From a virus: DNA of 41,025 bases. Under the pieces are notes generated by a model. That model did not search any database, was not told the origin of the DNA, and was given only the letters and a program-made list of their open reading frames with translations. Made by a program: the position numbers and the translations under genes. Positions 15,563 to 41,025 of this stretch are shown one piece after another. Position 1 is the stretch's first letter. Each line of letters starts with the position of its first letter. The stretch lies in the IMG/VR virus record IMGVR_UViG_3300045303_000058, positions 1 through 41,025 of that record, one strand, 5' to 3'.

Positions 15563-15582
15563 CTCCTCACTACTCGCCGGAC
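15563..15582. repeat. Gene-boundary repeat, copy 2
   Basis: Second copy of the 20-mer. It overlaps the last codons and TAG stop of the 82-aa gene and supplies the ribosome-binding site of the 149-aa gene. Together with copy 3 it extends to a 23-base match. Confidence 0.9.
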
Positions 15583-15818: not shown

Positions 15819-15824
15819 ACTCGG

Positions 15825-15844
15825 CTCCTCACTACTCGCCGGAC
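15825..15844. repeat. Gene-boundary repeat, copy 3
   Basis: Third copy of the 20-mer. It spans the last four codons and TAG stop of the Dam-type methylase gene and carries the ribosome-binding site of the next gene. Confidence 0.9.
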
Positions 15845-16430: not shown

Positions 16431-16774
16431 GAGTCGGTCGCCGGCATCGTCGGCCCCGGATCGGCCATGCGCTCGATGGTCACGCGCACCAAACCAGCCG
16501 ACAACGGGGCCAGCCTGGAGAACGCCGCGGGGCTCAGGTCGACCACGCGGTTGCCAGGGCAGCCGCAGAAGTCCCGGACCGTGACGACGACGCTGCGCCC
16601 GTTGCCGCTGACTCGGATCCGGTACGGCGTGTCGCCGTAGTGCCAGGAGGGGACGGCGGCGTAGAGCCCAGGGCCGTCGGAATACCACGAAGCCATCCCG
16701 GTGACGGCGGTATCGGTAGGCGGGGCGATCGGGGTCGAGGTGAGGAGCCACGCGGAGAGGATGAGGGTGGTCAT
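16427..16774 (-). CDS. Secreted RlpA-like double-psi barrel protein (115 aa)
   Basis: A signal-like N-terminus (TTLILSAWLLTSTPIAPP) precedes a barrel domain with TGMASWYSDG, VVVTVRDFCGC and RVVDLSPAAFSRLAPLSAG. These follow the RlpA pattern with its conserved Asp before DLS. It is a close relative of the barrel domain at 11518-12294 but lacks the membrane helix and coiled coil. It would act at the cell wall. It is unexpected beside replication genes. The ATG at 16774 overlaps the replication gene stop. Confidence 0.7.
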   Translation of the reverse strand: MTTLILSAWLLTSTPIAPPTDTAVTGMASWYSDGPGLYAAVPSWHYGDTPYRIRVSGNGRSVVVTVRDFCGCPGNRVVDLSPAAFSRLAPLSAGLVRVTIERMADPGPTMPATDS

Positions 16775-17289: not shown

Positions 17290-17639
17290 GCGTGGACCCG
17301 GCGCCGCAGGGCCTCTTTGTCCATGACCCGGCGCGACCGATGGCCGTCAGCGTGCCCGATCGCACGATCGCAACGCTCGCCGCGGTGTGCCTGCCACTTC
17401 GCGCCCTTGTACTGGAGCAGGTGTGAACAGCGGGGCAGCGTATTCTCGGGACTGATGCTGGGGGTGGACGGATCGGTCGGCCGGGCGCGCTTCTGGTAGT
17501 TCGTCGGGTGGATTACCTGGAGCATGTGGCCGATGACCTCGACAGGGCGCGAGCCGAACGCCGACTGGTGGCCTACCGCTACCTGGGGTTCGTTGTCTGA
17601 CCAGCCATAGATGCCGTCGACCACGACGCGCGTCCTCAT
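17286..17639 (-). CDS. Hypothetical protein (117 aa)
   Basis: The protein has a beta-like N-terminus (MRTRVVVDGIYGWSDNEPQ) and a His/Cys-containing second half (RCSHLLQYKGAKWQAHRGERC) that may bind zinc. It sits between the DNA methyltransferase and the replication gene and overlaps both by four bases. No family recognised. Confidence 0.6.
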   Translation of the reverse strand: MRTRVVVDGIYGWSDNEPQVAVGHQSAFGSRPVEVIGHMLQVIHPTNYQKRARPTDPSTPSISPENTLPRCSHLLQYKGAKWQAHRGERCDRAIGHADGHRSRRVMDKEALRRRVHA

Positions 17640-18808: not shown

Positions 18809-19017
18809 AGCCCCAGCGTCCCAGCGGCTGTCAGGATCCGATAGCGATAGACGCCCTTGTCGTCGCGCCACTTCTCGAAGTAGTAGCCCGAGTCCCGGAG
18901 ATCGGACATTCTGGCCGTCACGTTCGCAATATGGAGGTCGACCGCCATCTCCCACGTCGACGCCCCAGGGTGCTCCATGAGGTAGCGCGCAATCCGCGCG
19001 GCCAACGTGTTCTTCAT
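18805..19017 (-). CDS. Small winged-helix protein (70 aa)
   Basis: The sequence reads as a compact winged helix: RIARYLMEHPGASTWEMAVDLHIANVTARMSDLRDSGY followed by a beta-hairpin (KGVYRYRIL). Such single-domain proteins are frequent in phage early regions. It may regulate transcription or assist replication. The start ATG 19017 overlaps the upstream stop. Confidence 0.65.
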   Translation of the reverse strand: MKNTLAARIARYLMEHPGASTWEMAVDLHIANVTARMSDLRDSGYYFEKWRDDKGVYRYRILTAAGTLGL

Positions 19018-26121: not shown

Positions 26122-26810
26122 CTACAGCTTCTCCAACTGCTCGCGCCGCAGCGCCTCGAGGCTGGCGTCCTCGGTCGCGTTGTCGCTGCGGGACTGCTGA
26201 CGCAGGGCGACGCCGATCTCCTCCTCGGCCACGAGTTGGAGTGCGGCGAAGCCCTCCCGCCAGGTCATGGGTTCGGTACTGACTGCCGACCAGCCGAACC
26301 GTTGGCCGACGATGAGGCGCGCCGCGAGGGGCGAGGCTTGGATGAACGCGGGATGCGACGGGTCGACGCGCCGGTCTGCCCATTCCCGGATGTACCGTTC
26401 ATCCTCTTGAGCAAAGGGTCGATGAGCGCCTGCGAATACAGATCGTCCGCAGCCTCCGCGATCGGGTATGCCCAGGTGTAGTTCGCCAGCAGCACCTCGA
26501 CATCGAGAGGCACCGGACCGTCCTCATTGACAAGGTTCCAGCCCGTGACGCCTGCCCGGATGTAGACCGGGCCGACCAGTTCACCGGATCGGCTGTTGTC
26601 GACGATCGGATCCTGCCCGCTCGGCCCGCCTCCGGTCGGCGAGACGACGATCATCGCCTCGCCCAGCATCCGCACCGCCTCGGCCCCAGCCGCGAAGCCG
26701 AGAACCGGGCGCAGATACACGATATCTCCGTCGTCCGCCCCGTCCTTGCCGTTGTGCGGCGTGCCCGGGCACTGGCAATCGCGGAACCGGACCTGCCCTT
26801 CGGTGCCCAT
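26122..26810 (-). CDS. Tail assembly chaperone fusion made by -1 frameshift (229 aa)
   Basis: Ribosomes reading the 181-aa gene can slip back one base at CCCTTTG (26418-26412) and continue in another frame to TAG at 26124-26122. The product joins 133 residues of the first frame to 96 residues that include DERYIREWADRRVDPS and a Glu-rich C-terminal helix. The extension frame has no own start near its beginning and ends directly before the tape measure ATG. This is the G/GT arrangement of lambda-like tails. Confidence 0.8.
26265..26810 (-). CDS. Tail assembly chaperone, unshifted form (181 aa)
   Basis: It lies between major tail and tape measure genes and starts at ATG 26810, overlapping the major tail stop. 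The first 133 residues look like a folded domain (LDVEVLLANYTWAYPIAEAADDLYSQALIDP). The last 48 residues are Ser/Arg/Pro-rich and read like out-of-frame sequence, as expected where the unshifted frame simply runs to a stop. It helps tape measure folding in related phages. Confidence 0.75.
   Translation of the reverse strand: MGTEGQVRFRDCQCPGTPHNGKDGADDGDIVYLRPVLGFAAGAEAVRMLGEAMIVVSPTGGGPSGQDPIVDNSRSGELVGPVYIRAGVTGWNLVNEDGPVPLDVEVLLANYTWAYPIAEAADDLYSQALIDPLLKRMNGTSGNGQTGASTRRIPRSSKPRPSRRASSSANGSAGRQSVPNP
26412..26418 (-). promoter_or_regulatory. Slippery heptamer CCCTTTG for -1 frameshifting
   Basis: In the zero frame the site reads C CCT TTG, a perfect X XXY YYZ heptamer. Slippage re-pairs the two tRNAs on CCC and TTT. 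No strong stem-loop is evident directly downstream by eye. Confidence 0.8.
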
Positions 26811-27832
26811 TACAGGGTGGTCCGACTGTTGACGATGGTCTGCTTGTAGGCGTAGGTCAGCGTGGAGTCGTAGAAGGCGTGGTACGTCAGGATCAGGGTC
26901 GCGTTGCCGCCGATCTCACCGTCCGCCGCGTTGTACAGTTTGAACGCGCCGTCCCACTGGTAGCTGTACGGCGTCGCGGTGGTCGGGACCACGGTCTGGG
27001 AGACGTTGTTGAACCGGATGTAGCGCGCCGATGGGGTGGCGTTGGTGAGGGTCGCCCGCTCGGAGATCGGCAGAGCTTCCTTGGCGAAGGTCAGGACGAG
27101 CTCGATCTGGCGCGCCCCGCGGGCGTAGCCGGCATACGCGCGGCGGGAGTTGGAGCCGTTCGCCAACCGCTTCTTGTCGAGGTTGTTGGTGATGCTCAGC
27201 TGAAGTCCATGCAGGGCGTTGTTGACGACCGTGATGCCCATCGAGCCGGGAGCCACGTCGATCGAGATGTTCGACTCGTCGCCCATGATCGGGGTCGGGG
27301 CCGAGTCGACGGTCAGCGCGCCGGTCCGGTTGGTGGCGAGGGAGCCCTGCGCGAAGGCCCACGTATCCGAGAAGGTCAGGACGCCAAGATCCTCAGGGAC
27401 CGTCTCCTGGTAGGTGTCGATGACACCGTCACGGAACACCATGCCGTCAGTGGCCGACGTATCGTCGCCGGTCTCTAGGGTGAAGTACTCGAACGGATCC
27501 GCGGTGAGCGAGGCGATCTGGTAGACCCACGTCTTGGCCGTCGCGCCCGTGGGGGTGACGCCGCCCTTGAGGCACGCCGCCGCCCGGGCGGGCTGCTCGT
27601 TGTAGAACATCGGCCCGGTGGGCGACCAGCTGATGTTCGGAGCCCCGGCGATCGGCGGGATGATCGGGTCGATGGACCCGGTGTCCACGTCGAGGTCGGT
27701 CCGCTGGGGATCGTAGACGCCGATGCCCTTCCACGGGACCCGGCGGGTGGCTGCGACAGCAGTGCCGAATACGGTCTGCTTGCCCAGCTGGTTGGTGCGA
27801 AGCCTGACTAGGCCATCGCCGACTGGAGCCAT
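26810..27832 (-). CDS. Major tail protein (340 aa)
   Basis: The expected tube-forming protein: beta-rich and following the tail terminator and preceding the chaperones. Motifs such as RTNQLGKQTVFGTAVAATRRVPWKG at the start (residues 12-36) are typical of major tail proteins of siphophages, and the length is usual. A strong SD (GGAGG) precedes the ATG. The leader carries the inverted repeat listed separately, suggesting controlled expression. Confidence 0.8.
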   Translation of the reverse strand: MAPVGDGLVRLRTNQLGKQTVFGTAVAATRRVPWKGIGVYDPQRTDLDVDTGSIDPIIPPIAGAPNISWSPTGPMFYNEQPARAAACLKGGVTPTGATAKTWVYQIASLTADPFEYFTLETGDDTSATDGMVFRDGVIDTYQETVPEDLGVLTFSDTWAFAQGSLATNRTGALTVDSAPTPIMGDESNISIDVAPGSMGITVVNNALHGLQLSITNNLDKKRLANGSNSRRAYAGYARGARQIELVLTFAKEALPISERATLTNATPSARYIRFNNVSQTVVPTTATPYSYQWDGAFKLYNAADGEIGGNATLILTYHAFYDSTLTYAYKQTIVNSRTTL

Positions 27833-28373: not shown

Positions 28374-28831
28374 GCGCCGCTATCCCACAACGCGACGACG
28401 GCCTTGGAACCCTCCTGCTTGACGGCCTCCTGCAAGCCAGGCACGAGGTACGGATGCGGCCGGTTGCCCGGGTGGTGGACGATGGTGGCGAAGTGGGTGG
28501 CACTGGCCCCGGTTCGCAGGCTACCGGACAGCCGCCGATCGCCGCCCCACGCCAGCGCCTTGCGCCGGACGGGTCGGATGATGTGCGGCCGGCTGCCCAC
28601 CTCGACAGGCTTGGCGTAGCCGACATTCAGGCGTCCGCCCGCCACGAGCTCGCCCGTGGTGGGGGTGATCCGGCCCGGTCTGATAGTCCGGCCGAGGTTG
28701 CCGGTCTTGCGGGGGACGATGTGCTTGGCGTTGGCGGTGCCGCGGATGACGATCTTGCGGACCAGCTGCTCCGTCTTGCCCAGCGCCTTGAACCGCGCCT
28801 GGAGTTGCGAGTAGCCCTTGAGGTCGCTCAC
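28370..28831 (-). CDS. HK97 gp10-like head-tail joining protein (153 aa)
   Basis: The basic helical N-terminus (LQARFKALGKTEQLVRKIV) and the segment KHIVPRKTGNLGRTIRPG strongly recall gp10-type proteins, in which a PxxTGxLxxS-like motif is conserved. The GTG at 28831 overlaps the previous stop as GTGA. It acts at the connector between capsid and tail. Confidence 0.75.
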   Translation of the reverse strand: MSDLKGYSQLQARFKALGKTEQLVRKIVIRGTANAKHIVPRKTGNLGRTIRPGRITPTTGELVAGGRLNVGYAKPVEVGSRPHIIRPVRRKALAWGGDRRLSGSLRTGASATHFATIVHHPGNRPHPYLVPGLQEAVKQEGSKAVVALWDSGA

Positions 28832-29499
28832 GTCCCGGCGACCGACACCGGGATGGCCCACGAGGAGATGAACTCCTGCACCGGCAGCGGCCAGCCCGAG
28901 TAGTCGATCGTGCCGTCGTTGGCTGTGGCGATGGACGACACCAGCACGGCATCGGGGTACTTGGTCAGGAATGCCGCGAGCACCTTGGTCGCGAACCGAA
29001 CCGGCTCGGGGAGGTTGGCGTCTGAATAGCCCCACGTCGAGGCGGCACTGAACACGAGGTCGTTGGGCAACGCGCTCGCTCCAGCACCGCCCCACTTCGG
29101 TGAATCCTTGTTGGTGTCGAACCAGTCCGAGTAGGCGAGATACGCTGGGCCATCGGTGCGGGTGTTGAAGCCGCGCAGCTGGATCCCGGTGAACACCCCG
29201 GTCTGCTGGAGGTCCGGGATGAGCCAGTACGACTGATCCTGGATGAGCGTCGAGCCTGCCCACGTCACCGTCCCCGGCGTCCGAAGCCCCGGGATCGTGA
29301 CCGAGGCGTTGCCGTTGGTCGAGAAGGTCATGGCCTGGGTGCGGTCCCCGAACAGCCGGTTGGTCGCGCGCTCGAGCATCCATGACGCCATCCGGATGTT
29401 GGAGTTGATGGTCTGATCGGTGTACTTGGACGTGCTGTCCACGTCGAGGTCGAGGAAGTCGCGCACCGCCTGTGCGAAGGTCAGGCTGGGTGCGGTCAT
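28828..29499 (-). CDS. Head-tail adaptor/connector protein (223 aa)
   Basis: The N-terminal helix bundle (FAQAVRDFLDLD...IRMASWMLERATNRLFG) fits the gp6/gp15-like head-tail connector layout, with a beta-rich middle. Position directly before the gp10-like gene supports this. It resumes the structural operon after the interposed glycan block. Confidence 0.6.
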   Translation of the reverse strand: MTAPSLTFAQAVRDFLDLDVDSTSKYTDQTINSNIRMASWMLERATNRLFGDRTQAMTFSTNGNASVTIPGLRTPGTVTWAGSTLIQDQSYWLIPDLQQTGVFTGIQLRGFNTRTDGPAYLAYSDWFDTNKDSPKWGGAGASALPNDLVFSAASTWGYSDANLPEPVRFATKVLAAFLTKYPDAVLVSSIATANDGTIDYSGWPLPVQEFISSWAIPVSVAGT

Positions 29500-30710
29500 G
29501 CGGCGGCCCTCAAGCGGTCGGAGATAGCCGCCGAGAACTGGATGGCGGCCTTGGCCCAGCTGAAGTTGGCGGCGACGTGCCCCGGCCCAGCCATGCCCAG
29601 CCTACGCCGGAGCACGTCATCATCGAGCAGCGAGGCCACGATGGGGCCGTACGCCTTCTCGTTGGGCAACGCCCAGAAATGGTCATAGCCGTTGTCGATG
29701 AGGCCCGCGATGGGGGCCGTCAGCCCTGCGGGGCCGATGACTTCGGGGACGGCGGAGTAGTCAAGCCCGACCGCCGGGGTCCCGCAGGCGATCGCCTCGG
29801 CCACGGTCAGCCCAAACCCCTCGGCGGAGGTTGAGACGTACACGTCCGCCGCATTGTACAACGCGGTCAGTATGTCCCGACTAGCCCCACCCGCCATATC
29901 GTGGAAGCCCGTCAGCACCATGCGCCGGCTGATGAACGCAGGGTACTTGGCGATGGTGTCGGGGAGGTAGCCACCCTGGTCGATGGACCGGCAATGGATG
30001 ACCATCTGCACGTCGGGGTGCGAGGCCAGGACCGGCGCGATGGCCCGGAGCATGGCCGGGTACATCTTGCGGGGCATGAACCGATCGGTCCGCAGCAGCC
30101 ACCGTGACCGGGGGTCGGCCCCGAACATCGCCTTGCAATCAGCCTTGGAGCGCAGCGCCTTGCCGCCGATCCAAAGCGGCCTCGTGGGGGAGACGGGGCG
30201 GAACTGGTCGGTATCGACGCCGTGGTATACGACCGGCGGCTTGGACCCGGTCACCTTCTCGATGCACAACGCCCCGAACTCGGACATGGCGATGGGTGCG
30301 ACGACCTCCCAGAGCGCGCTCCAGGTCGGTGGAAGGTCGACACCCTCGATCGGACAGTAGTGGAACGTCGGCACGGTCGAGAAGGCGGTGCGCGTCTCCT
30401 CGTTCGCCAGCACGACCTCGCGGATCGCGAAGAAGTCGCCAAGGACGATGCCCGCGTCGGGGATCCAGTGGTCCGGCCAGACCGTGCCGTCCATGAGCCC
30501 GGTGATACCCGCCGCCTTGAGGGCCAGCCAGCCGTTCGGATCGTTGACCCGGAACGTCCGCGAGTCGAACGGTGCGGGGAGGTCGCCGAGCTCGTTCTGG
30601 CTGATGAACCGGACGTCGTGGCCGAGGTCGAGCAGCGCCTTGCCCAGATCGAGCGTGACCGAACCGAAGCCCGTCCCGGCTAGGTCGCCCCAGAACAGGA
30701 TCCGCGTCAC
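29496..30710 (-). CDS. Glycosyltransferase, GT-B fold, GT4-like (404 aa)
   Basis: A full-length GT-B enzyme. The N-terminal domain begins TRILFWGDLAGTGFGSVTLD. The C-terminal nucleotide-sugar domain carries VYHGVDTDQF, LRTDRFMPRKMYPAML and the hallmark EGFGLTVAEAIACGTPAVG near residue 310. It transfers a sugar from an activated donor; donor and acceptor cannot be read from sequence. Start GTG 30710 overlaps the previous stop as GTGA. It is the last gene of the glycan block. Confidence 0.85.
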   Translation of the reverse strand: MTRILFWGDLAGTGFGSVTLDLGKALLDLGHDVRFISQNELGDLPAPFDSRTFRVNDPNGWLALKAAGITGLMDGTVWPDHWIPDAGIVLGDFFAIREVVLANEETRTAFSTVPTFHYCPIEGVDLPPTWSALWEVVAPIAMSEFGALCIEKVTGSKPPVVYHGVDTDQFRPVSPTRPLWIGGKALRSKADCKAMFGADPRSRWLLRTDRFMPRKMYPAMLRAIAPVLASHPDVQMVIHCRSIDQGGYLPDTIAKYPAFISRRMVLTGFHDMAGGASRDILTALYNAADVYVSTSAEGFGLTVAEAIACGTPAVGLDYSAVPEVIGPAGLTAPIAGLIDNGYDHFWALPNEKAYGPIVASLLDDDVLRRRLGMAGPGHVAANFSWAKAAIQFSAAISDRLRAAA

Positions 30711-31684
30711 GCCAGCAGCGCCCGGATAGCCTCGGCCTCGCCGTCCCAGTCGATGGCGTCGAACTCGGCCCGGATCGCCAGGCACATCTCCTCGTGCCGC
30801 TCGGGCGTCATCGTCCGCACCATCTCCACCGTCTCGGGGATCGTGTGTCGGTCGAGGTCGATGCACGTCACGCCGTCCTGCCAGAACCGTTCGGCCATCC
30901 GGTCGGCGTAGTGGGAGGCGTGCCCGATGAGCGGCCGACCGACCGCCGCCCAGGTGTGGATGACGTGCCCGAAGCCGTCGCCCTGCGCCTTGTCGTGCCA
31001 GCCCCAGCCGTAGATACCCATCAACTCGACGAGTCTCCGATACGGCTTGATGATCCCGCAGCGCCCATAGGGACTGTCGATCCCGTACACGGCCACGGGT
31101 AGCCCCTTCCTATACGCCTCCTCCACTAGGTCCCAGCAAGCCCCCATTGAGGTCATGCAGTTGACAAACGACGCCGCCGACCGAATACGCCCGCGCGCGC
31201 CCACGCTGGGTTCATCAAACGCCACCGGGTCCATCTCCTGGTGATAGACCACGCCCCGCCCCTCGATGGGCATGAACTCCGAGGACGACAGCACCAGCGG
31301 ATCGCGCGACCAATCGACCCATTGCCCGGTGTTGCCGACTTGCATGACGAACTTCGCGCCGTGCTCGGATGCGAAGCGCGCGAACCCGGGCTCGTTATCG
31401 GGGACCGAGGCGATGACGTAGGCCCACTCCATGCCCTGCGCCTCGGTCAGCGTCACGGTCGGCACGTCCCAGTCGGGGAACTCGCCGTCCGGTCCGGGGT
31501 CGGCCATGAGGAACTGCTGGGCCAGCCGGTCGTCGCCGTACGTCGAGCGCCCGAACTCCCAATAGTCGGCGTGCCACCAGTCCATGCCCGCCGGGGTGTA
31601 GAGCGTCCAGCCGAAGCGCGCGGCCATCAGCTGGAGGGAGTGGTACAGCCCCGAATGGTGGCGATCGGCCAGGACGTTAGGCAT
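30707..31684 (-). CDS. Glycosyltransferase-like protein, GT-B type (325 aa)
   Basis: The protein has the size and layout of a GT-B enzyme, with GHVIHTWAAVGRPLIGHASHY in the C-terminal half in place of the usual EAxxxGxP motif, and an N-terminus reading NVLADRHHSGLYHSLQLMAA. It lies between two clear glycosyltransferases and overlaps the upstream one by eight bases. Activity is likely but the catalytic residues are not defined. Confidence 0.55.
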   Translation of the reverse strand: MPNVLADRHHSGLYHSLQLMAARFGWTLYTPAGMDWWHADYWEFGRSTYGDDRLAQQFLMADPGPDGEFPDWDVPTVTLTEAQGMEWAYVIASVPDNEPGFARFASEHGAKFVMQVGNTGQWVDWSRDPLVLSSSEFMPIEGRGVVYHQEMDPVAFDEPSVGARGRIRSAASFVNCMTSMGACWDLVEEAYRKGLPVAVYGIDSPYGRCGIIKPYRRLVELMGIYGWGWHDKAQGDGFGHVIHTWAAVGRPLIGHASHYADRMAERFWQDGVTCIDLDRHTIPETVEMVRTMTPERHEEMCLAIRAEFDAIDWDGEAEAIRALLA

Positions 31685-32711
31685 GGACCGTCACGCCGAG
31701 GAACAATGCCCACTGGTCAGCGATGGTGTCGAGGCCGAATGTGCGGACGGCCATCTCTCGCTGAAGCGCCGACCACGACTGCCCGATGTCTGTCGTCAGA
31801 ACTTGGTCGAGCATATAGGCCGCGCCATCCGGCGTGGGTGCCCAATGGACCGCGAGTTCGTGGCCCTCGAACAGTTCCGGGTAGCCGAAGATCTGCATGT
31901 ACCCGGGACCGATGCTGACCACCGGGACGCCGGTCATCATCGCCTCGATGAGTCCCAGCGTGTAGGACGCGGGCTGGGTGCCGGTGTAGAGGTAGACCCG
32001 GATGTCCCGGAGGTACTGGCGCATCTCGTCATAGCCGAGCTCGCCCAGCCCGCCGTGGAGTTCCGATCCCGGACCAGCCGGGAGCCGTGGAAGCCCACGG
32101 GTCACCTCCTCCCAGAAGCCGTAGTTCGTCCACGGGTCACGCCGCAGTAGTCCCTGGGTCACGTTGCCCACCACCGCCTTGTCGCCCGTCCATCCGTACC
32201 AGTCGGTGGGGTCCTTGCCGAACCGGATCAGCGCATCGTGCCCGATGTAGCCCGGGATGAACCGCTCGTTGGGTGAGTAGGCGACCCGCTCGAGCCCGTC
32301 CGCCCGGAGCGGTCCCATCATCCGCTCGTTGTTCTCTACCGACTGCCCGACCGTTCGCCAGATGACCCGCCGACCCGGAGCGCCCCGCATCCAGTCACGG
32401 ATCCGCGGCCAATCCCCGACCAGGCGTTCTAGATAATGGTGGAACACGATCACGTCGGCCCAGTCCAACAGCGCGTCGGGAAGATGCTCCTGGGCAGCGG
32501 TCAGGTTGTCGTCTGAGCCGATGGCATCGACGGCGCCCTTGAGGTCCGGGAAGAAGGTCATATCGGACGGCGGCCGGGTATCGACGTGGGGATGCTGGGG
32601 ATCGATGTAGGGACCGATATCGAAGGCTTCCACGCCGATCCGCTTGTAGAGCTTGAGCATGTCGTAACTCTCGACGCTGTGCGAGAGCGCCTGGACGACG
32701 TGGAGCATCAT
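31677..32711 (-). CDS. Glycosyltransferase, GT-B type (344 aa)
   Basis: The C-terminal donor-binding domain contains YTGTQPASYTLGLIEAMMTG followed by VPVVSIGPGYMQIFG, a clear GT4-like motif with the conserved Glu. The N-terminal acceptor domain begins MMLHVVQALSHSVESYDMLK. The ATG at 32711 overlaps the HNH gene stop as ATGA. Sugar and acceptor unknown. Confidence 0.75.
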   Translation of the reverse strand: MMLHVVQALSHSVESYDMLKLYKRIGVEAFDIGPYIDPQHPHVDTRPPSDMTFFPDLKGAVDAIGSDDNLTAAQEHLPDALLDWADVIVFHHYLERLVGDWPRIRDWMRGAPGRRVIWRTVGQSVENNERMMGPLRADGLERVAYSPNERFIPGYIGHDALIRFGKDPTDWYGWTGDKAVVGNVTQGLLRRDPWTNYGFWEEVTRGLPRLPAGPGSELHGGLGELGYDEMRQYLRDIRVYLYTGTQPASYTLGLIEAMMTGVPVVSIGPGYMQIFGYPELFEGHELAVHWAPTPDGAAYMLDQVLTTDIGQSWSALQREMAVRTFGLDTIADQWALFLGVTVHA

Positions 32712-33106
32712 CGGGCTGCCCTTGCTCGCCGGGTTTCCCAGCCCGCCAGCGCAGCGCGATGGGCAACCCCCGGCGCGAACCGATGCGGGCTATCCGATCC
32801 CTTCTTGGTACGGCCTTTCGCGTCTCGGTCCCGGATATTGTCCAGTTGCGTCCCAGCGAACAGGTGCGACGGGTTGATGCACGGCGGGTTGTCGCAGGCG
32901 TGCAGGATGCGTTCGTTGGGACCGATGACCGGATGCCGCTGGAGGATCCACGCGACCCGGTGCGCGAGCATATAGCGCCCCCGGAACTTGAGCCGCCCAT
33001 AGCCGCGCTCCTTGCCCCTGTTCAGGCCGCGCTGCCATTCCCAGCACCCGCGCGGCGTCACCTTCGCGCGCGACCAGAACTCCGCTTCTGTTACCGGGTT
33101 ACCCAT
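32708..33106 (-). CDS. HNH endonuclease, homing-type (132 aa)
   Basis: The domain follows the pattern of stand-alone phage HNH nucleases: RGCWEWQRGLNRGKERGYGR, then LAHRVAWIL, then HACDNPPCINPSHLFAGTQ with catalytic His/Asn residues. It lies between the acetyltransferase and a glycosyltransferase gene, overlapping both. Such genes are often mobile. GGAGGGCAGG precedes its ATG at 33106. Confidence 0.85.
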   Translation of the reverse strand: MGNPVTEAEFWSRAKVTPRGCWEWQRGLNRGKERGYGRLKFRGRYMLAHRVAWILQRHPVIGPNERILHACDNPPCINPSHLFAGTQLDNIRDRDAKGRTKKGSDSPHRFAPGVAHRAALAGWETRRARAAR

Positions 33107-33479
33107 CGTCCTGCCCTCCGTAGTACTTGACGACCCGCGCCGGCACCCCTGCCACCAGGGCGTAGTCCGGCACATCATCGACCACCACCGAGCCCGCCGC
33201 CACCACCGCGAACCGACCGACCGTGACCGGCCCCACGATGATGCAGCGGGTGCACAGCCAAGCGCCCTCCTTGATGTGGACCGGCCCGCCGCCCGACGTC
33301 ACCCTACGCTCGGCTCCGAACACGTTGGGGTCGTGGCTGCCCGTCAGGATCATGACGTCGTGCCCCGAGAACGCATCCTTCTCGATGGTCACCTTGTGGA
33401 TGCAGTCCACCATCGCGTCCATGAGCACCGACGGGTGGATGTCCGGCTCGACGCCCGTCTCCCGGCTGGTGAACCTCAC
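33099..33479 (-). CDS. Hexapeptide-repeat acetyltransferase (126 aa)
   Basis: The C-terminal half shows left-handed beta-helix repeats (IKEGAWLCTRCIIVGPVTVG) ending in the family signature AAGSVVVDD...YALVAGVPARVVK. A central GSHDP supplies the likely catalytic His. Members O-acetylate sugars using acetyl-CoA. Start GTG 33479 overlaps the FkbM gene stop as GTGA; the longer frame is a shadow. Slightly short for the family, so it may be a minimal form. Confidence 0.8.
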   Translation of the reverse strand: MRFTSRETGVEPDIHPSVLMDAMVDCIHKVTIEKDAFSGHDVMILTGSHDPNVFGAERRVTSGGGPVHIKEGAWLCTRCIIVGPVTVGRFAVVAAGSVVVDDVPDYALVAGVPARVVKYYGGQDDG

Positions 33480-34168
33480 CGCCGCACCGCCCGGAACCCG
33501 CCCGGTCCCTCGAACGGCCCCGAGAACGTAACGACGTGCGTCTCGGACAGTAGGCCGATGATGTCGTCCTGCGTGCCGTGGGTGTTGTGCCATTCCCCGA
33601 CGAACGTCTCCACCTTGCCGACCGCGGGGCTGTCGAGGAACGCGAACTCCGCGCCCTCGGTGTCGATCTTGCAGAACGCCACGTCCCCGCCGGCCATCGC
33701 CACAAGGGTCTGCAATGTGGTCGCGGGGTAGCTGATGGTCGCTGCCGCGTCGCTCGTTGCTAGGATGGACGAGTTCCCCACGAAGGCGTGGTGGGTCGCC
33801 GACTCGCTGCCGGTGAACCCGTAGGACACGTCGACGAACCCCGACTTGCCGACCGCGCCTTCGATGAGCCACACCCGCGCGCCGACGCCGTTGGCCTCGA
33901 TGTTCGTGCGGATGAGGTCGATGTTCGGCGGCACGGGTTCCACGATGAGCACCCGGAGGTCGGGGTTGTCGACGGCCAGCGCGATGCCGACCGAGCCGAG
34001 GTAGCCGCCGATGTCCAGCGCCACGCCCTCGAGGTCATGGGGCAGCCCGTACTCGTCCTGGTCGAGCGATGCGGTCAGGGTGTTCGCGTCATTGGTGTGG
34101 TCCCGGTACGTCATCAGCAGATCGTGACCGCCCGGGGTCCGGAACCGCCCGATCCGGAGGTCATACAT
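33476..34168 (-). CDS. FkbM-family methyltransferase (230 aa)
   Basis: The SAM-binding motif ALDIGGYLGSVGIALA is near residue 50, followed by VEPVPPNIDLIRTNI and the family-typical CKIDTEGAEFAFL near 165. FkbM enzymes O-methylate hydroxyls on sugars or polyketides. Within this block it most likely methylates a transferred sugar. It overlaps the upstream glycosyltransferase gene by eight bases. Confidence 0.85.
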   Translation of the reverse strand: MYDLRIGRFRTPGGHDLLMTYRDHTNDANTLTASLDQDEYGLPHDLEGVALDIGGYLGSVGIALAVDNPDLRVLIVEPVPPNIDLIRTNIEANGVGARVWLIEGAVGKSGFVDVSYGFTGSESATHHAFVGNSSILATSDAAATISYPATTLQTLVAMAGGDVAFCKIDTEGAEFAFLDSPAVGKVETFVGEWHNTHGTQDDIIGLLSETHVVTFSGPFEGPGGFRAVRR

Positions 34169-35084
34169 CCCACGTCACCCACGGTGCGAACCGGGCGTCC
34201 CAGCGCGCGAGCTCGTCCAGGTCGATGTCCATCCGGGCGAGATACGGTGTCGTGTCGATGCCCATCCTGCCCCACCACGCCAGCCTACGGGTCCACAAGC
34301 CGCCGCCCGGGCCGTAGTCGGGGAGGGTCGCCAATGGACCGTCCAGCTGGTCGAGTGTCGAGAGGCCGGTGACGTGGAACCACGGCGGATCCTCGGCGAT
34401 CCATTGCTCCACCGCAAGGGCATCGAACAGGCGGACGTGGTGGACGAGCCTCGTGAACAGCCCTCGGTTTCGCAGCTGGAAGGTCGTCCCGAACAGGGTG
34501 TCGAGGTGGATGTAGTCGGGGTCTACTCCAACGAACTCGCACGCCTCCTTGGTCACATTGCCCCAGCCGACGATGCCCTCGCCGAGCCACCATCGTTGGT
34601 CCCCGAACTCGCGGTCAGTTTCCATGAGTGCGGCCCGACGGATAAACAGGAAGGTCGGCCACAGTCCATGCCGTAGTTCGGCAAGGTCGCCCCGCTGATA
34701 TGGCCCCCACTCTTGAAGCGGCGATGCGGCGTAGTCCTCATGTCGCGGCGAGCCGACAATATCCACATGGCGGCGTTCAACTGAGGTGAAAGCCGCCCAG
34801 ACGGCTTCGGGATGCCGGACGTAGGCGTCGTCCTCGCACAGCACGACGTATTCGGCAGACGTCCCATTGAGCAGCGCCAGCAGCGCCCCGTCGTGGCCCA
34901 GCCGTTCCGGGGTCATGACGCACCGGCCGCCCGCTTCGCCAACCATCCGGGCCAGCCGTTCGTCGGTCGAGCCGTTGACGAGCACCAGGAGTTCATCGAC
35001 GTAGTTCGACCACGTTGCGAAGTTACGGAGCCAGTAGGCCAGCGTCTCGACGTTGCCCGGTGTCGGGAGCAGGGCTGCCCTCAT
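34161..35084 (-). CDS. Glycosyltransferase, GT-A-like (307 aa)
   Basis: The N-terminal Rossmann-like part (ELLVLVNGSTDERLARMVGE) leads to VVLCEDDAYVRHPEAVW, where EDD acts as the DxD-type metal and nucleotide-sugar site near residue 105. Later Trp/Gly-rich segments fit GT-A enzymes. The start ATG 35084 overlaps the previous stop as ATGA. Confidence 0.75.
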   Translation of the reverse strand: MRAALLPTPGNVETLAYWLRNFATWSNYVDELLVLVNGSTDERLARMVGEAGGRCVMTPERLGHDGALLALLNGTSAEYVVLCEDDAYVRHPEAVWAAFTSVERRHVDIVGSPRHEDYAASPLQEWGPYQRGDLAELRHGLWPTFLFIRRAALMETDREFGDQRWWLGEGIVGWGNVTKEACEFVGVDPDYIHLDTLFGTTFQLRNRGLFTRLVHHVRLFDALAVEQWIAEDPPWFHVTGLSTLDQLDGPLATLPDYGPGGGLWTRRLAWWGRMGIDTTPYLARMDIDLDELARWDARFAPWVTWDV

Positions 35085-35344
35085 CGTCGCGGCCGAACGT
35101 AGACGGCTCGCTGGTGTGCGCTGTAGGTCACAAGATTCATCGCGAAGTCGTTGTCGACCCGTTCCGATGACTGGACGTCGTAGGGCAATCCGATTGGCCG
35201 ATACCGCCCGCCCCTCGGTCCACGGAGATCCTCGTCGCTAGCGATATTGAGCATCTGTTGAGCGAAGGCGTCCGCGTCCTTCCGTTCGGCCTTCCAGTAC
35301 TGACGGCTGACCTTGACCGCAAGCACGAATACCGTGGTCCTCAT
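35081..35344 (-). CDS. Hypothetical protein (87 aa)
   Basis: Begins with a beta strand (MRTTVFVLAVKVSRQYW) and is basic with several Tyr residues. No family recognised. Coupled at both ends within the glycan block. Confidence 0.6.
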   Translation of the reverse strand: MRTTVFVLAVKVSRQYWKAERKDADAFAQQMLNIASDEDLRGPRGGRYRPIGLPYDVQSSERVDNDFAMNLVTYSAHQRAVYVRPRR

Positions 35345-35853
35345 AGCGGTTCGAGGGTCGCCAGCCCGAACGGCAGTTCGTTGTCGATGAGGTGCCAGCC
35401 CTCGCGGGCCATGAACTCGTACGCCGCCCGGGCCACCGGCTCCATGACGAAGTCGTGCATCACGATCCGCTTCGGCTGGAAGGTCAGCGAGTAGGCGAGT
35501 TCCCGAACGGTGTGCTCGTATTCGTGGGACGTGTCGATGAACACGAGGTCCGCGCGGTCCGGGAGTTCGTCTTGGATTGCCGAGTCCATGTCATCACCGA
35601 CTAGGAACAGCCATCGCGGGTCATTCTGAACGCGCGGCGGGACCACGCAATCCACGATATCGACCGACCACAGCGACCCGTCAGCGGGCAGCCCGTCGAG
35701 GAGCGCCCAGGTTGAGACGCCGCCCCTAACCCCGAACTCGATGATCGTCTTGGCCTGGGCCGCCCACTTGGTGAGCGTCTGGATATGCGGGGCCATGTCT
35801 ACCTGTTCGTCGGCCCACTCGCGGAGGGACGTAGCCTCAAGAGCGCCGCTCAT
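35341..35853 (-). CDS. SAM-dependent methyltransferase, Methyltransf_24-like (170 aa)
   Basis: Motif I reads TIIEFGVRGGVSTWALL near residue 40. The segment ADLVFIDTSHEYEHTVREL near 115 is typical of Methyltransf_24/cephalosporin-hydroxylase-like enzymes that modify sugars or natural products. ATG 35853 overlaps the upstream micro-gene stop as ATGA. The extended upstream frame (to 36054) shadows that micro-gene. Confidence 0.75.
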   Translation of the reverse strand: MSGALEATSLREWADEQVDMAPHIQTLTKWAAQAKTIIEFGVRGGVSTWALLDGLPADGSLWSVDIVDCVVPPRVQNDPRWLFLVGDDMDSAIQDELPDRADLVFIDTSHEYEHTVRELAYSLTFQPKRIVMHDFVMEPVARAAYEFMAREGWHLIDNELPFGLATLEPL

Positions 35854-36011
35854 CGCGCTAACGCCCAAGAATGGAACCATTCGAGGACTGTGATGGTCGT
35901 GAGTGCCGCCGCGAGTCCCCAGCCGCACCGATCGGCAGGGAAGCCAAGGCCAAGGCAAATCCCAAAGCCGATCAGACTCCCAACGGCGTATCCGCCCATT
36001 CGCTCGCTCAT
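35850..36011 (-). CDS. Small two-helix membrane protein (53 aa)
   Basis: Two hydrophobic stretches are visible: GGYAVGSLIGFGICLGLGF (6-24) and GWGLAAALTTITVLEWF (30-46). ATGA overlaps join it to both methyltransferase genes. A membrane anchor or scaffold for the glycan enzymes is conceivable; no direct evidence. Confidence 0.6.
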   Translation of the reverse strand: MSERMGGYAVGSLIGFGICLGLGFPADRCGWGLAAALTTITVLEWFHSWALAR

Positions 36012-36481
36012 CGTCGCCTCCCCGTGACTTGTGGACCGCCCGATTGGGGGTCATCGCGTTCGTCCACGATCTCGCAGCCCGCCAGCCCCATCAGGATGGG
36101 CACGGTGGCCGGCAGGAACCGCCAGTAGTCGGGTTCGTTGTGGACCGGGAACGACTCGCGGACGGTGGTCAGGATCAGGTAGCCCCCAGGTCGCAGGACC
36201 CGCCCGACCTCGGGGAGCGTCCGCCAGAACGCGGGGTCGTGCTCCAGCATCGAGGTCGAGACGACGACATCGAACGAGGCGTCATCGAAGGTCAGCGCGG
36301 CGGCGTCCATGACCTCGTCCACGCCCTTGCCCTCTTGGGTGTCGATGCCGACGTACTCGCCCGTGAACAAGCCCCGGACCGTGCCGTTGAAGTCGTAGGA
36401 GCCGATCTCCAGGGTTCGGAGTCCAGCGAGCTCGCGCGACTCAACGATCCCTGTCACGTATTCCATGACGGATTCGTGCAT
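36008..36481 (-). CDS. SAM-dependent methyltransferase, Methyltransf_11-like (157 aa)
   Basis: The fold is shown by TLEIGSYDFNGTVRGL (motif I, near 24), YVGIDTQEGKGVDEVMDA, SFDVVVSTSMLEH and VLRPGGYLILTT. It is compact but complete. It is the first gene of the glycan block and follows a hairpin-rich leader; its start AAAGGGCAGGGATG has a perfect upstream complement. Confidence 0.8.
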   Translation of the reverse strand: MHESVMEYVTGIVESRELAGLRTLEIGSYDFNGTVRGLFTGEYVGIDTQEGKGVDEVMDAAALTFDDASFDVVVSTSMLEHDPAFWRTLPEVGRVLRPGGYLILTTVRESFPVHNEPDYWRFLPATVPILMGLAGCEIVDERDDPQSGGPQVTGRRR

Positions 36482-36563
36482 CCCTGCCCTTTCGCTACTG
36501 CCCTAACTGCCCGACAGTATAGAGGAGTCCCGGGACCCAAAGGGCAGGGATGGGTCCCGGGAC
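36479..36563 (-). promoter_or_regulatory. Regulatory leader: strong hairpin plus anti-ribosome-site repeat
   Basis: A 13-base perfect stem (36527-36539 with 36551-36563, arms GTCCCGGGACCCA and its complement, loop 11 bases) lies upstream of the methyltransferase. Its loop and arm edges contain CATCCCTGCCCTTT on the coding strand (36552-36539), the exact complement of AAAGGGCAGGGATG at 36492-36479, which holds the ribosome site and start codon. A TATACT hexamer (36521-36516) lies between. The hairpin is not followed by a U-run, so attenuation or translational control is more likely than simple termination. Confidence 0.6.
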
Positions 36564-36569
36564 GGTGGC

Positions 36570-36599
36570 GTCGGACGGGGTTGAACCGAACCATCCGAC
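36570..36599 (-). terminator. Hairpin downstream of the small Lys-rich gene
   Basis: Nine-base stem with one G-U pair (36570-36578 with 36591-36599) and a 12-base loop, directly after the stop at 36610. No U-run follows. It stacks with the stronger hairpin 7 bases further on and may slow or attenuate transcription after the capsid genes. Confidence 0.4.
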
Positions 36600-36609
36600 T
36601 CCATGTGGT

Positions 36610-36783
36610 TCAGCCAGGGTGTGAACGCTGGCCGGTTGGCAGATCGGCGGCGGGCGGTTCGTTCGCCGGCTTCGCGGTGTCGGCAGGATCCGTGGCGGTT
36701 GCCACGTTGCCCTTCTGGACACGCTCGGTCGCCTTGTCAACCTCTTTGTCGACTGCCTTCTTGAGCGACTTGGACTGAGCCAT
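36610..36783 (-). CDS. Small Lys/Ala-rich protein downstream of capsid (57 aa)
   Basis: MAQSKSLKKAVDKEVDKATE opens a charged helix, followed by an Ala/Pro/Thr-rich disordered tail. A clear GGAGGG lies seven bases before ATG 36783. It is flanked by hairpins on both sides, so its messenger may be processed together with that of the capsid gene. A capsid accessory or decoration role is only a positional guess. Confidence 0.6.
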   Translation of the reverse strand: MAQSKSLKKAVDKEVDKATERVQKGNVATATDPADTAKPANEPPAADLPTGQRSHPG

Positions 36784-36803
36784 CTCTGGCCCTCCGTGCG
36801 GGT

Positions 36804-36832
36804 GTGGACGGTGGCACTACACCACCGTCCAC
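36804..36832 (-). terminator. Perfect 11-base hairpin after the capsid gene
   Basis: GTGGACGGTGG and CCACCGTCCAC pair around a seven-base loop, 14 bases after the capsid stop codon. No U-run follows. It could protect the 3' end of capsid messenger or act as a partial terminator that lowers transcription of downstream genes. Confidence 0.5.
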
Positions 36833-36846
36833 GTTGCGGATGCGCC

Positions 36847-38352
36847 TTACGGAATGACGTCCGTGTTCATCTGGAAGTAGCCGGCATAGACGGCCGGTCG
36901 GGCGTCGAAGCCCATCTCCTCCTCGCCTCGGAAGCCGGTGAGGTTCGTGTCCCAGCGGGTGCCTGCCTGGTCGGACGAGTCGACCCGGTAGGACTGCCCG
37001 AAGAAGATCTTGAACTTCTTCCAGTTGCCGACCACGAGGTTGTCGGCCACTGCCGCGGTGCCCTCCAGGTCCGCGTCGGCGTCCGGGTAGACCGGGATGC
37101 CGAACGGGCTGATGAGCGTCCCGGCGGGGACATTGATGGCCGTCGGGCCGGCCGACGGGTTGAAGAAGAAGCCCGCCGAGTCGGTGCCCTGCGCGAGCAT
37201 CGTCCAGTAGGCCGTCGCCGAGAGCACGGCCGCCAAGCCCTGCCCGCTGGTGCTTGCCGCGCCGCGGCCCGCGAGGACCCCGGCATCGGTGGCGATCGCC
37301 ACTGCGATGGAACCCGCGAGGGTCGTCGCCGACGGCGTGAAGGCGGTCCGGAACGCGGCCGGTCCGTTGGTGAGCGCCGGGGTGTAGCCGAACGGCTGCG
37401 AGGAGCCGGTGCCCTCCCGGATGTAGAACGCCTCGCCCTGGGCGAACGCTGCGGCGAGCTCGGACAGGACGTCCTGCTCGGCCGCACCGCGCGACTGGCG
37501 AAGGAACTGGTTGCCGATGTCGTAGATGCGGGCCAACGTGTACATCGTCGCGGTGTACCCGTTGTAGTCGAGGTTGACGTTCTCCTTCGTCTGGCCGAAC
37601 GCCACGATGGCGGCCCGGGTGCGGACTGCGGATCGGAACGGGAGGTCGACCGCGAACGCGGTGACACCACTCACGACCGTGCAGATCGTCCGGTAGATAT
37701 CAGCGACCTGGCCCGGGACGATGAGGTCGTCCACGATCGCGTTCGGGATGATCCAGCCACCCGTCGCGTCGGTCGTGCCGAGCGTCGCCTTGCCCCAGGC
37801 TTCCTCGTACTGGTAGGCGTGACGGTCGCCCGAACGGAAGCCGGTCAGTTCCTCGAGGATCGCCTTGCCTTCCGGCGTGGCGGCCTTCATCGGATCCGGT
37901 CGGCCGTCGCGCAGCGCGGCGAGGATCGCCTTGCCCTCCGCCTGACGATCGGTGTCGCGGGCGTTGGCCTCGTGGACGCCCCACAGGAACGCGCCACGGG
38001 TGTCGGCGTCGAAGTGCTCGGGTCGCGGACCCGCTCCGATGAGCCGCGCCTTCGAGGGGGTGCGGTAGGAGTCGGCGAATGCCTTGGCCTCCCGCGCGTT
38101 CTCGATGGCCTCGGTGATCTCGGACTCGCGGGCCTGCTCGTCGGCCTTGGCCTTCAACTGGGTGAGATCGGCGGCCACGCGCTGCTGCTCTTCGCGCAGC
38201 TCGTTGTACCGGCCAGTGTCGTCCTTGCGTGCTTCCTGGAGGTCAGCGGCGAGCTTGTCGAGATTGGCAGCGGCCTTCCCGATCATCTCTGCCGTGACCG
38301 TGTCGGGATTGGCGTCGCCTACGACGCCCTCCCGGACGAACGATTCGGACAC
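36847..38352 (-). CDS. Major capsid protein, HK97 fold (501 aa)
   Basis: The first 100 residues form a long charged coiled coil (NLDKLAADLQEARKDD...ELREEQQRVAADL), the delta scaffold removed by the protease in this family. The body has the standard features: GGWIIPNAIVDDLI near 190, E-loop-like beta region, and LVVGNWKKFKIFFGQSYRVD near the C-terminus. Start is GTG 38352, with GGGAG eight bases upstream inside a small hairpin. It follows the protease gene directly. Confidence 0.92.
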   Translation of the reverse strand: MSESFVREGVVGDANPDTVTAEMIGKAAANLDKLAADLQEARKDDTGRYNELREEQQRVAADLTQLKAKADEQARESEITEAIENAREAKAFADSYRTPSKARLIGAGPRPEHFDADTRGAFLWGVHEANARDTDRQAEGKAILAALRDGRPDPMKAATPEGKAILEELTGFRSGDRHAYQYEEAWGKATLGTTDATGGWIIPNAIVDDLIVPGQVADIYRTICTVVSGVTAFAVDLPFRSAVRTRAAIVAFGQTKENVNLDYNGYTATMYTLARIYDIGNQFLRQSRGAAEQDVLSELAAAFAQGEAFYIREGTGSSQPFGYTPALTNGPAAFRTAFTPSATTLAGSIAVAIATDAGVLAGRGAASTSGQGLAAVLSATAYWTMLAQGTDSAGFFFNPSAGPTAINVPAGTLISPFGIPVYPDADADLEGTAAVADNLVVGNWKKFKIFFGQSYRVDSSDQAGTRWDTNLTGFRGEEEMGFDARPAVYAGYFQMNTDVIP

Positions 38353-39263: not shown

Positions 39264-39839
39264 TCAACGGCGCTTGAGCTCAACCGCTAGGTCGGGGATC
39301 ACATTCCAGTAGTGCGCGCGCGCGTATGCTTGGTGCTCCGGGGTCCGGGTGCTGATGTCGTCGGCGATCCCGGTCCCGGAGATCACGACCACCTCGAAGT
39401 CTGCTTCGGTGTAGTGGCCGAGCCCGTTCAGCTCGCGCCACGGCTTGTCGAGGTAGTACCACGACATCTCGTGGATGAACCGGACGTGGGTCGGGTCCCA
39501 AAAAGCCCGCGCCGACATGACGTAGGGGTGCACGACGTGGATCAGCGCGCCCTTCTTGGCGATCCGGTGGACTTCCTCCCAGAACAGGAACCAGCCGTCT
39601 CGCACGCCCCACTCGGGCCGATAGTGGGGTATATGCTCGGCGAAGTGCGATACCGATATCTCCTGCACCGACCCCGTCTTGATGGGCCACGGGAACCGGA
39701 ACAGGTCCCAGACGATGTCGCTGTCGGGTTCCAGGTCGATGCCGACGTAGCCGTCGCGCTTGTTCCGACCGGCGGCGATATCCAGCCGCTTCGGTGCCCA
39801 GATCTTGGGTTCGTCGTCCACCGCGTGTAGCGCGCTCAT
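39264..39839 (-). CDS. SAM-dependent methyltransferase-like protein (191 aa)
   Basis: RLDIAAGRNKRDGYVGIDLEP (motif I region), then DIVWDLFRFPWP and SVSHFAEHIPH are typical of predicted methyltransferases that act on sugars or small molecules. The C-terminal half is Trp/Tyr-rich. ATG 39839 overlaps the HNH stop (ATGA), with AAGAGGGCAGG just upstream. It lies between fibre and protease genes. Confidence 0.75.
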   Translation of the reverse strand: MSALHAVDDEPKIWAPKRLDIAAGRNKRDGYVGIDLEPDSDIVWDLFRFPWPIKTGSVQEISVSHFAEHIPHYRPEWGVRDGWFLFWEEVHRIAKKGALIHVVHPYVMSARAFWDPTHVRFIHEMSWYYLDKPWRELNGLGHYTEADFEVVVISGTGIADDISTRTPEHQAYARAHYWNVIPDLAVELKRR

Positions 39840-40291
39840 CCTGCCCTCTTGCGTTCGTAGAACCGTTGCTGACTCGCCTTGGCACAGATCCGACAGACAC
39901 GCCCGCCCGACTTCGGGAGGATGTAAAGGTTCGACCCCGAGTAGGGGTGGCCCTGGGGACAATGCGTCTTGGCCCGCTGGAGTGCGGCGACCGCTTGGTA
40001 GCCCGCTCGGTAGTCGCCCCGCAGGATGTTCTCGCGGTGAGTGACGGCCTCAAGATGGTCGGGATTGACGCAGGCATGGTTCCGGCAGAGATGGTCGAGT
40101 TCCAGCCCGTCCGGAATCGGCCCACGCATCAGTTCGTAGCCCACGCGGTGAGCCAAGGCCGAGGTCCGCTTGCTGTTCAGGACGAACCGCCCATAGCCGC
40201 CCTTGTCGATCGCGCCAGTCCAGAGCCAGCAGTCGTCCTCATACCGCACGAACCGCATGAACCGCTGGCTGGTGGGCTCGCCCCTTACCAC
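39836..40291 (-). CDS. HNH endonuclease with zinc-type C-terminus (151 aa)
   Basis: Motifs CWLWTGAIDKGGYGRFVL, LAHRVGYELM, LDHLCRNHACVNPDHLEAV mark a stand-alone phage HNH nuclease; HCPQGHPY and CRIC add a C-terminal zinc module. GTG 40291 is proposed as start because it overlaps the glycosyltransferase stop; ATG 40257 would also leave the domain intact. It sits between two sugar-modifying genes and is probably mobile. Confidence 0.8.
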   Translation of the reverse strand: MVRGEPTSQRFMRFVRYEDDCWLWTGAIDKGGYGRFVLNSKRTSALAHRVGYELMRGPIPDGLELDHLCRNHACVNPDHLEAVTHRENILRGDYRAGYQAVAALQRAKTHCPQGHPYSGSNLYILPKSGGRVCRICAKASQQRFYERKRAG

Positions 40292-41019
40292 ACCTGGCCC
40301 TCTGGCCCGAACGAACCGTTGTAGTCCAAGTGCCCAACCTTTACGCGCGTGTCGCACGCGACTTTGTAGCCCGCCTTGGCTAGCTTCTCAAAAAGAAATA
40401 GGTCCTGAGTATAGCCCCGCGAGCCTCGGTCGGGATGGTAGTCCTGCACGGTCTGGAACCACGGGCGCTCGATGGCGGGGTCGCGAAAGACCTTCATGTC
40501 GAACAGGGTGAACCCCATTCCCAGTCCGCGACACTCTTGGACCGTCTCCACGCGGGGAATCTGGGGGATGAAGTTCAGCATGCCCTTGGGATCCCCATAG
40601 ATCATCGGTTGGCCTCCAGGACCCTTACACCAGTAGAGTCCGCCCACGACCGCGTACTTATCCATCGACTCATACAGCTTCAGCAGCCCGTCCGGCGGGG
40701 GAAGGTTGTCCTCCTCGAGGGTGAGGATGTACTTCCACTTGGACAGGTCGGGGTGGGCCAGGATCGTCTCGATGGCCTTGGTGTAGGCGTCACCCACCTC
40801 CATGCCCGCCACGAACAGCCGGACCACCTTCTGGTTCATCGGCGTCATCAGGCCCAGCCAGTTCTCGACCGCACGGGCCGGGATCATGCCCCGGGTCGGG
40901 ACGATGATGATGGTCGAGATGTCGCGGTACGCCTTGCCCGCCCGCAGCCGCGCCCGGGCGTCCTTGGCGTGGTCGTTGTGGAAGCCGACGTCGCCGCCGA
41001 TGAAGATCGCTGGTTCCAT
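40285..41019 (-). CDS. Glycosyltransferase, GT-A / GT2-like (244 aa)
   Basis: The N-terminal core (ISTIIIVPTRGMIPARAVENW) and ILTLEEDNLPPPDGLLKLYE near 100 give the nucleotide-binding fold with an acidic EED in the DxD position. RGLGMGFTLFDMKVF and TQDLFLFEKLAKAGY complete the GT-A pattern. When the circle is closed it begins 10 bases after the large collagen-like fibre gene, which makes that fibre a natural acceptor candidate (inference). Confidence 0.8.
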   Translation of the reverse strand: MEPAIFIGGDVGFHNDHAKDARARLRAGKAYRDISTIIIVPTRGMIPARAVENWLGLMTPMNQKVVRLFVAGMEVGDAYTKAIETILAHPDLSKWKYILTLEEDNLPPPDGLLKLYESMDKYAVVGGLYWCKGPGGQPMIYGDPKGMLNFIPQIPRVETVQECRGLGMGFTLFDMKVFRDPAIERPWFQTVQDYHPDRGSRGYTQDLFLFEKLAKAGYKVACDTRVKVGHLDYNGSFGPEGQVW

Positions 41020-41025
41020 GCCTGC
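40813..41025. repeat. Right copy of terminal direct repeat (contig overlap)
   Basis: Matches positions 1-213 with six mismatches confined to 40939-40954. It carries the start of the glycosyltransferase gene. See the left copy for interpretation. Confidence 0.85.

Follow-up and report, generated by a model that had tools for sequence, protein, structure and literature searches.

A candidate virion-protein glycosylation locus with an exchangeable glycan cassette in the head operon of an environmental phage lineage

Results

Gene content of the block between the capsid and adaptor genes

The viral record IMGVR_UViG_3300045303_000058, analysed here over all of its 41,025 nucleotides (the window), carries a block of glycosyltransferase (GT) and methyltransferase (MT) genes between the gene for an HK97-type major capsid protein (MCP), which flanks it upstream, and that for a head–tail adaptor (HTA), which flanks it downstream (Table 1; genes are named by their lower coordinate). 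This arrangement is real and not due to chance, as it recurs in all 50 complete MCP–HTA intervals retrieved with MCP as bait. From MCP to HTA the genes follow in the order 36008 (MT), 35341 (MT), 35081 (orphan), 34161 (GT), 33476 (FkbM), 33099 (hexapeptide), 32708 (HNH), 31677 (GT, core A), 30707 (GT, core B) and 29496 (GT4, core C). An earlier note on this DNA had listed four GT-like genes, three MTs, a hexapeptide acetyltransferase and an HNH gene, and all of these were recovered by family searches, profile comparison or structure prediction. Its description of the genes as overlapping throughout fits all but one of the ten junctions between 36008 and HTA, with overlaps of 4 or 8 nt; the exception is the junction of 36008 and 35341, where a gap of about 130–155 nt intervenes. 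Start sites were corrected for 29496 (to 30710), 33099 (to 33479) and 35341 (to 35880 or 35853).

A two-helix membrane protein that had also been reported in the block was not confirmed: the 87-aa product of 35081–35344 is hydrophilic, and no block protein contains a 19-residue window above 1.8 on the Kyte–Doolittle scale. By this measure the block enzymes look soluble, and no flippase, GtrA-like protein or membrane-anchored GT is present in the window's block, which has no transmembrane-like segment. The HNH gene is probably a mobile passenger; we rejected it as a pathway member because the HNH genes of relatives lie at other, scattered positions.

Directly after the MCP stop codon lies a strong hairpin with the stem GTGGACGGTGG/CCACCGTCCAC, and the product of the possible open reading frame (ORF) behind it would be hydrophilic. 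A stable hairpin recurs at this position in relatives with differing sequence (median z of -2.4; z < -2 in 59% of cases versus 3% of control windows), and the cassette may therefore be expressed below the level of MCP.

Enzyme identities

Core C contains a GT-B C-terminal domain with the E-x7-E motif, and its profile matches GT4 retaining enzymes of the MshA and PimB type at 2e-11, although this match covers only part of the protein. Core A has a weak Pfam match (0.008); its profile matches Tll1590 and TarM at 1.5e-5 to 2.4e-5 and also HepE, with values from 1e-5 to 2e-3 overall, and only the second glutamate of the E-x7-E motif is kept.

The remaining two GTs were assigned from AlphaFold2 (AF2) models. 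Core B, modelled from a 71-sequence alignment with a predicted local distance difference test score (pLDDT) of 94.3, resembles HepE in Foldseek (3.7e-10; TM score 0.63) and is thus predicted to adopt a GT-B fold. It does not contain the canonical GT4 E-x7-E catalytic motif; at the site corresponding to EGFGLxxxE it carries DGFGHxxH (with D236, H240 and H243), which is near-invariant in the 71 sequences, so that we regard it as a predicted enzyme and a putative GT-B glycosyltransferase. The model of 34161 (pLDDT 88.8) matches AvpGT (3.5e-8) and GT2 enzymes, which points to a GT-A fold, and an acidic, presumed metal-binding ED motif is conserved in its alignment; this gene would therefore encode a GT-A glycosyltransferase.

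The same interval in related viruses

In all four close MCP relatives (L002–L005), a GT cassette occupies the same interval and ends with genes resembling 31677, 30707 and 29496. Searches with each core gene yielded 111 contigs in total, and because this sample is biased by its bait, the search was repeated with an MCP profile. This approach returned 80 contigs, 50 of them with a complete MCP–HTA interval and representing 47 clusters at 90% MCP identity. Completeness was defined by HTA (or gp10), so that a member whose HTA is not recognisable would escape, and apart from the window and the four MCP relatives the profile was built from contigs that had been found through their GTs. The search of related genomes proposed in the earlier note thus found a GT cassette in every one of the 50 viral contigs with a complete interval, each with core C directly before HTA. 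All three core GTs are present in 30 of the 50, mostly together with FkbM, and an alternative gene set starting with a GT2 gene in 20. Core B was found at 41 viral loci versus two loci in 84,980 species genomes, both of the latter on short contigs of metagenome-assembled genomes (MAGs). The collection of deposited phages yielded no direct homologue of MCP, the putative tail-tube protein (MTP), FkbM, 34161, core A or core B.

The cassettes of relatives encode further steps of sugar metabolism. A GDP-mannose 4,6-dehydratase is present in L004 (2.8e-125), an epimerase (1.8e-49) and a UDP-glucose/GDP-mannose dehydrogenase (1e-22) in L005, a cytidylyltransferase in L200 (1.6e-15), and an asparagine-synthase-type amidotransferase with a hexapeptide transferase in L204; others carry an NTP-transferase (L168), a GDSL esterase (L214) or a putative rhamnosyltransferase (L195). 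The L199 cassette (12227–15966), with FdtA (5.2e-41), a beta-ketoacyl-ACP synthase III, a short-chain dehydrogenase and a GNAT acetyltransferase, suggests a phage-made acylated amino-sugar. The statement that the block lacks sugar-nucleotide synthesis genes therefore holds for the scanned ORFs of the window but not for the locus, and the use of host donors that had been deduced from it may apply to the window's genome only, because relatives encode nucleotide-sugar enzymes themselves.

In five virus contigs, mostly of about 50–130 kb (L089, L090, L094, L095 and L097), genes of the core A/B and core C-like types stand in another order and context.

Inheritance of the core genes

Pairwise distances between those members that have cores A, B and C, coarse measures based on raw identities, separate core C from its neighbours. 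Its divergence correlates with that of MCP (0.59), HTA (0.65) and MTP (0.53) to the degree seen among the structural genes themselves (MCP–HTA 0.56; MCP–MTP 0.46), whereas the correlations against MCP are low for FkbM (-0.06), core A (0.11) and core B (0.15). These values suggest that core C shares its inheritance with the genes for capsid, neck and tail tube, and that FkbM, core A and core B form an exchangeable cassette. The gp10 gene, which adjoins HTA on the other side, correlates weakly (0.17), and physical linkage alone is for this reason a poor explanation of the co-inheritance of core C.

Genome context

The first 213 bases of the window recur at its end (1–213 versus 40813–41025, six mismatches in 213 bases), and the record, although classed as linear, is therefore probably a near-complete genome of about 40.8 kb that is circularly permuted or terminally redundant. 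The late genes lie on the minus strand in the order terminase, portal, two collagen-like genes, then across the likely join 40285, 39836, 39264, putative protease, MCP, the block, HTA, gp10-like gene, 27921, putative tail tube, 26265 and tape measure. The GT-like gene 40285 and the methyltransferase-like gene 39264, both upstream of the protease and outside the region covered by the earlier note, were missing from its list. The product of 40285 is 40% identical to that of a gene annotated 'has synthase' in podovirus ctKR88, where it belongs to a GT/MT block behind MCP. Homologues of 39264 and 40285 stand side by side in L184, the sole relative in which we saw this pair.

Table 1. Features of the block and of the surrounding genome. 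Scores are E-values of family matches unless stated otherwise.
Feature	Position	Strand	Evidence and remarks
MCP-downstream region	36482..36846	-	365 nt between MCP and 36008; strong hairpin, possible 55-aa ORF, second hairpin before 36008
S-adenosylmethionine-dependent methyltransferase (Methyltransf_11)	36008..36481	-	3.2e-11; homologue in same interval of phiPsal1, 1.2e-13
Methyltransferase (Methyltransf_24)	35341..35880	-	1.9e-6; same-locus homologues in L005, L006, L122
87-aa hydrophilic orphan	35081..35344	-	no significant family match
Putative GT-A fold GT, GT2-like, EDD motif	34161..35084	-	weak GT2 match; AF2 and Foldseek
FkbM-type methyltransferase	33476..34168	-	8e-9; in 27 of 50 complete intervals, all 27 with cores A, B and C
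Hexapeptide-repeat acyltransferase-like	33099..33479	-	8.3e-5, under Pfam cut-off; also in cassettes of L012, L060, L063
HNH endonuclease	32708..33106	-	phrog_1872, 5.1e-30
Core A, GT-B glycosyltransferase	31677..32711	-	in 30 of 50 intervals
Core B, putative divergent GT-B glycosyltransferase	30707..31684	-	no Pfam/PHROG match; AF2 fold
Core C, GT4 glycosyltransferase, lineage-fixed	29496..30710	-	Glyco_trans_1_4, 4.5e-12; in 50 of 50 MCP-baited intervals
MCP, HK97-type	36847..38352	-	phrog_10, 2.4e-13; L002–L005 62-67% identical
HTA	28828..29499	-	phrog_442, 7.2e-5
gp10-like gene	28370	-	adjoins HTA on side away from block
Gene 27921	27921	-	between gp10-like gene and putative tail tube
Putative tail-tube protein (MTP)	26810..27832	-	from position, conserved in relatives; no family match; candidate acceptor
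Gene 26265	26265	-	between putative tail tube and tape measure
Tape measure	24445	-	
Terminase	6791	-	
Portal with MuF-like domain	4404	-	
Collagen-like protein	3416	-	
Collagen-like fibre, 871 aa	217..2832	-	Collagen, 2.3e-9; Ser/Thr 25%, Ser/Thr-rich repeats; alternative acceptor candidate
GT-like gene	40285..41019	-	phrog_1574, 5.9e-9; upstream of protease
HNH-like gene	39836	-	sequence reading
Methyltransferase-like gene	39264..39962	-	sequence reading; no Pfam/PHROG match
Putative protease	38418	-	position

Elsewhere in the window, 17636–18955 encodes an N6/N4 DNA methyltransferase (2.8e-43), which together with a weak Dam-like match at 15832 might indicate protection of the DNA by methylation. 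Two DPBB lytic-transglycosylase-like proteins are encoded at 11518–12390 and 16427–16801, and the former also weakly matches an Rz-like spanin. No Rfam families were found. As to the host, terminase matches are scattered over many hosts, all below 60% identity; the window's MCP had no match in 396 genomes from the phylum of a Nanopelagicales MAG, a weak negative as the search had no positive control, and no matching MCP occurs in the MAGs to which L142 and L143 belong.

Discussion

Our analysis suggests that the interval between MCP and HTA is a virion-protein glycosylation locus, in which one GT is fixed in the lineage and the glycan cassette can be swapped, and we consider this the probable function of the block. 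Expressed late, the soluble GTs would use nucleotide sugars to assemble a short glycan and would attach it to at least one virion protein; the first candidate acceptors are MCP and the tail-tube protein. The methyltransferases and the hexapeptide acyltransferase would cap or decorate the sugars. Core C might recognise the protein acceptor or add the protein-proximal sugar, and the genes upstream of it would form a cassette on which the identity of the outer glycan depends; related phages would then carry different glycans, because the cassette is swappable. The benefit would probably be shielding or altered adsorption, which we infer, as we do the acceptor and the order of action. This reading draws on the folds and families of the GTs, the fixed position of the block, the constancy of one GT amid exchanged neighbours and the nucleotide-sugar genes of relatives. 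Of the original proposal of a glycan on virion proteins, the modification itself is thus the best-supported reading, given a GT inherited with the structural genes, apparently soluble enzymes and the likeness to cluster O discussed below, and the acceptor and the glycoprotein stay at the level of proposals.

Freeman et al. 2023 (as cited in PMC11600133, PMC12363180 and PMC12619734) described virion glycosylation for the mycobacteriophages Che8, Corndog (cluster O) and Myrna. According to the account of cluster O (Corndog-type) phages in PMC11600133, an O-methyltransferase and three GTs encoded in the head operon modify the capsid and the tail tube. The present block shares with these phages the placement of GT and methyltransferase genes within the head gene region. 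The cluster O order is portal, O-methyltransferase, GT, GT, GT, protease and MCP, so that the module lies between portal and protease and not between MCP and HTA; moreover, the available passages on these phages describe no cassette exchange with nucleotide-sugar genes. As a separate observation, 40285–41019 and 39264–39962, between fibre and protease, occupy a position matching the cluster O module.

Several points weigh against our interpretation. The cluster O enzymes (Catdawg gp33–36) have no match at E<0.01 to the profiles of core A, B, C and FkbM or to the window's proteins, and because of this lack of detectable homology the likeness is one of kind and not of family. Mycobacteriophage glycans have been reported at C-terminal tails of the capsid and tail-tube proteins (PMC12619734), whereas MCP and MTP of the present lineage end flush without evident tails; no C-terminal extension was seen in either protein. 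Furthermore, the co-inheritance of core C could in part reflect physical linkage to HTA, and the distances are raw pairwise identities and not trees.

Similar gene orders exist in deposited phages. Pontimonas phage phiPsal1 (MG835450) carries MCP, GT4, methyltransferase, GT2 and neck genes, and Microcystis phage Mae-JY09 (PP395641) carries MCP, a small gene, GT4, a GT2-like gene, an epimerase and neck genes; their GT4 proteins match core C at 4.6e-18 and 9.3e-13, respectively. Both therefore share with our lineage a core C-homologous GT4 after MCP, followed by further glycan genes and the neck/HTA region, but their cassettes are small and without core A/B. The phage phiPsal1, which is reported as lost, 'will not be further discussed' in PMC6106888, and we found no functional account for either deposit. 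The podovirus ctKR88 likewise has GT and methyltransferase genes behind MCP, and Tetrasphaera phage TJE1 a nucleotidyltransferase–kinase–epimerase–methyltransferase–GT run before its terminase. To call the block an undescribed system, as had been suggested, is too strong, since there are published cases of phage virion glycosylation and the order MCP–GT–MT–GT–neck already stands in the phiPsal1 record.

Among viruses outside the phages, the chlorovirus PBCV-1 glycosylates its capsid protein Vp54 in the cytoplasm with virus-encoded GTs, a methyltransferase domain and a GDP-mannose dehydratase (PMC5408694). A further match of the core C profile is the GT4 B736L of chloroviruses, which are eukaryotic giant viruses. 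Their glycosylation genes are not known to be gathered in one structural-operon cassette.

It is unlikely that the enzymes act during infection on a host surface or cell-wall glycan, for superinfection exclusion or progeny release, and not on the virion. The GMD, FdtA, UDP-sugar dehydrogenase, GT2 and GT4 families of the cassettes are typical of bacterial surface-polysaccharide clusters, and the match of core A to TarM concerns a wall teichoic acid GT. However, the window's cassette lacks any membrane protein, flippase, GtrA-like protein or membrane-anchored GT, and thereby differs from serotype-conversion (gtrABC) clusters with their membrane flippase and membrane-anchored GT; in addition, the GT4 stays inside the head operon and tracks the structural proteins, and late expression would be ill-timed for exclusion.

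We think it rather improbable that the glycan, while on the virion, is attached to a fibre, collagen-like protein or other appendage and not to the capsid or tail tube. The fibre at 217–2832 is rich in serine and threonine, contains collagen-like repeats and would adjoin the GT-like gene 40285 if the contig ends join. A recognisable collagen-like ORF was present in only 6 of the 45 relatives with enough upstream sequence, however, and we rejected the collagen-like fibre as a general acceptor for the lineage; the upstream GT/MT pair recurs in a single relative, in contrast to the universal core C.

That the variable genes are passenger morons without a common function, leaving a role for core C only, seems very unlikely to us. 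FkbM, core A and core B do exchange freely and an HNH endonuclease lies inside the block, but in the intervals examined almost every recognisable exchanged gene belongs to a glycan-biosynthesis type, and the genes overlap tightly. Hypermodification of the phage DNA is barely credible. Glycosylation of DNA bases by phage GTs is known (cited in PMC12619734), but Pfam scans, which covered the larger ORFs and part of the small ones, revealed neither a hydroxymethylase nor a thymidylate-synthase-like or other base-preparing enzyme; an N6/N4 DNA methyltransferase is encoded by the genome itself, and the sugar methyl- and acyltransferase types together with the position between MCP and neck fit a protein-linked glycan better.

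More tentatively, and short of calling it probable, we propose that the MCP–HTA interval acts as a virion 'serotype locus', a counterpart of the bacterial O-antigen or capsule locus, in which an acceptor-facing GT4 stays fixed together with the capsid genes, the cassette, with nucleotide-sugar and acyl steps in some members, is exchangeable, and the particle glycan differs from phage to phage. Across a divergent lineage, one GT belongs to the head operon as constantly as the adaptor gene does, and the surrounding glycan genes show the kind of variation seen in a polysaccharide locus. Particle glycosylation is so far known from few phage isolates; our reading predicts that many environmental phages have glycosylated particles and that their glycans are diverse within a single lineage. 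The question of what selects for such glycans, be it survival in soil or water, adsorption, or interaction with hosts or grazers, would thereby become directly testable.

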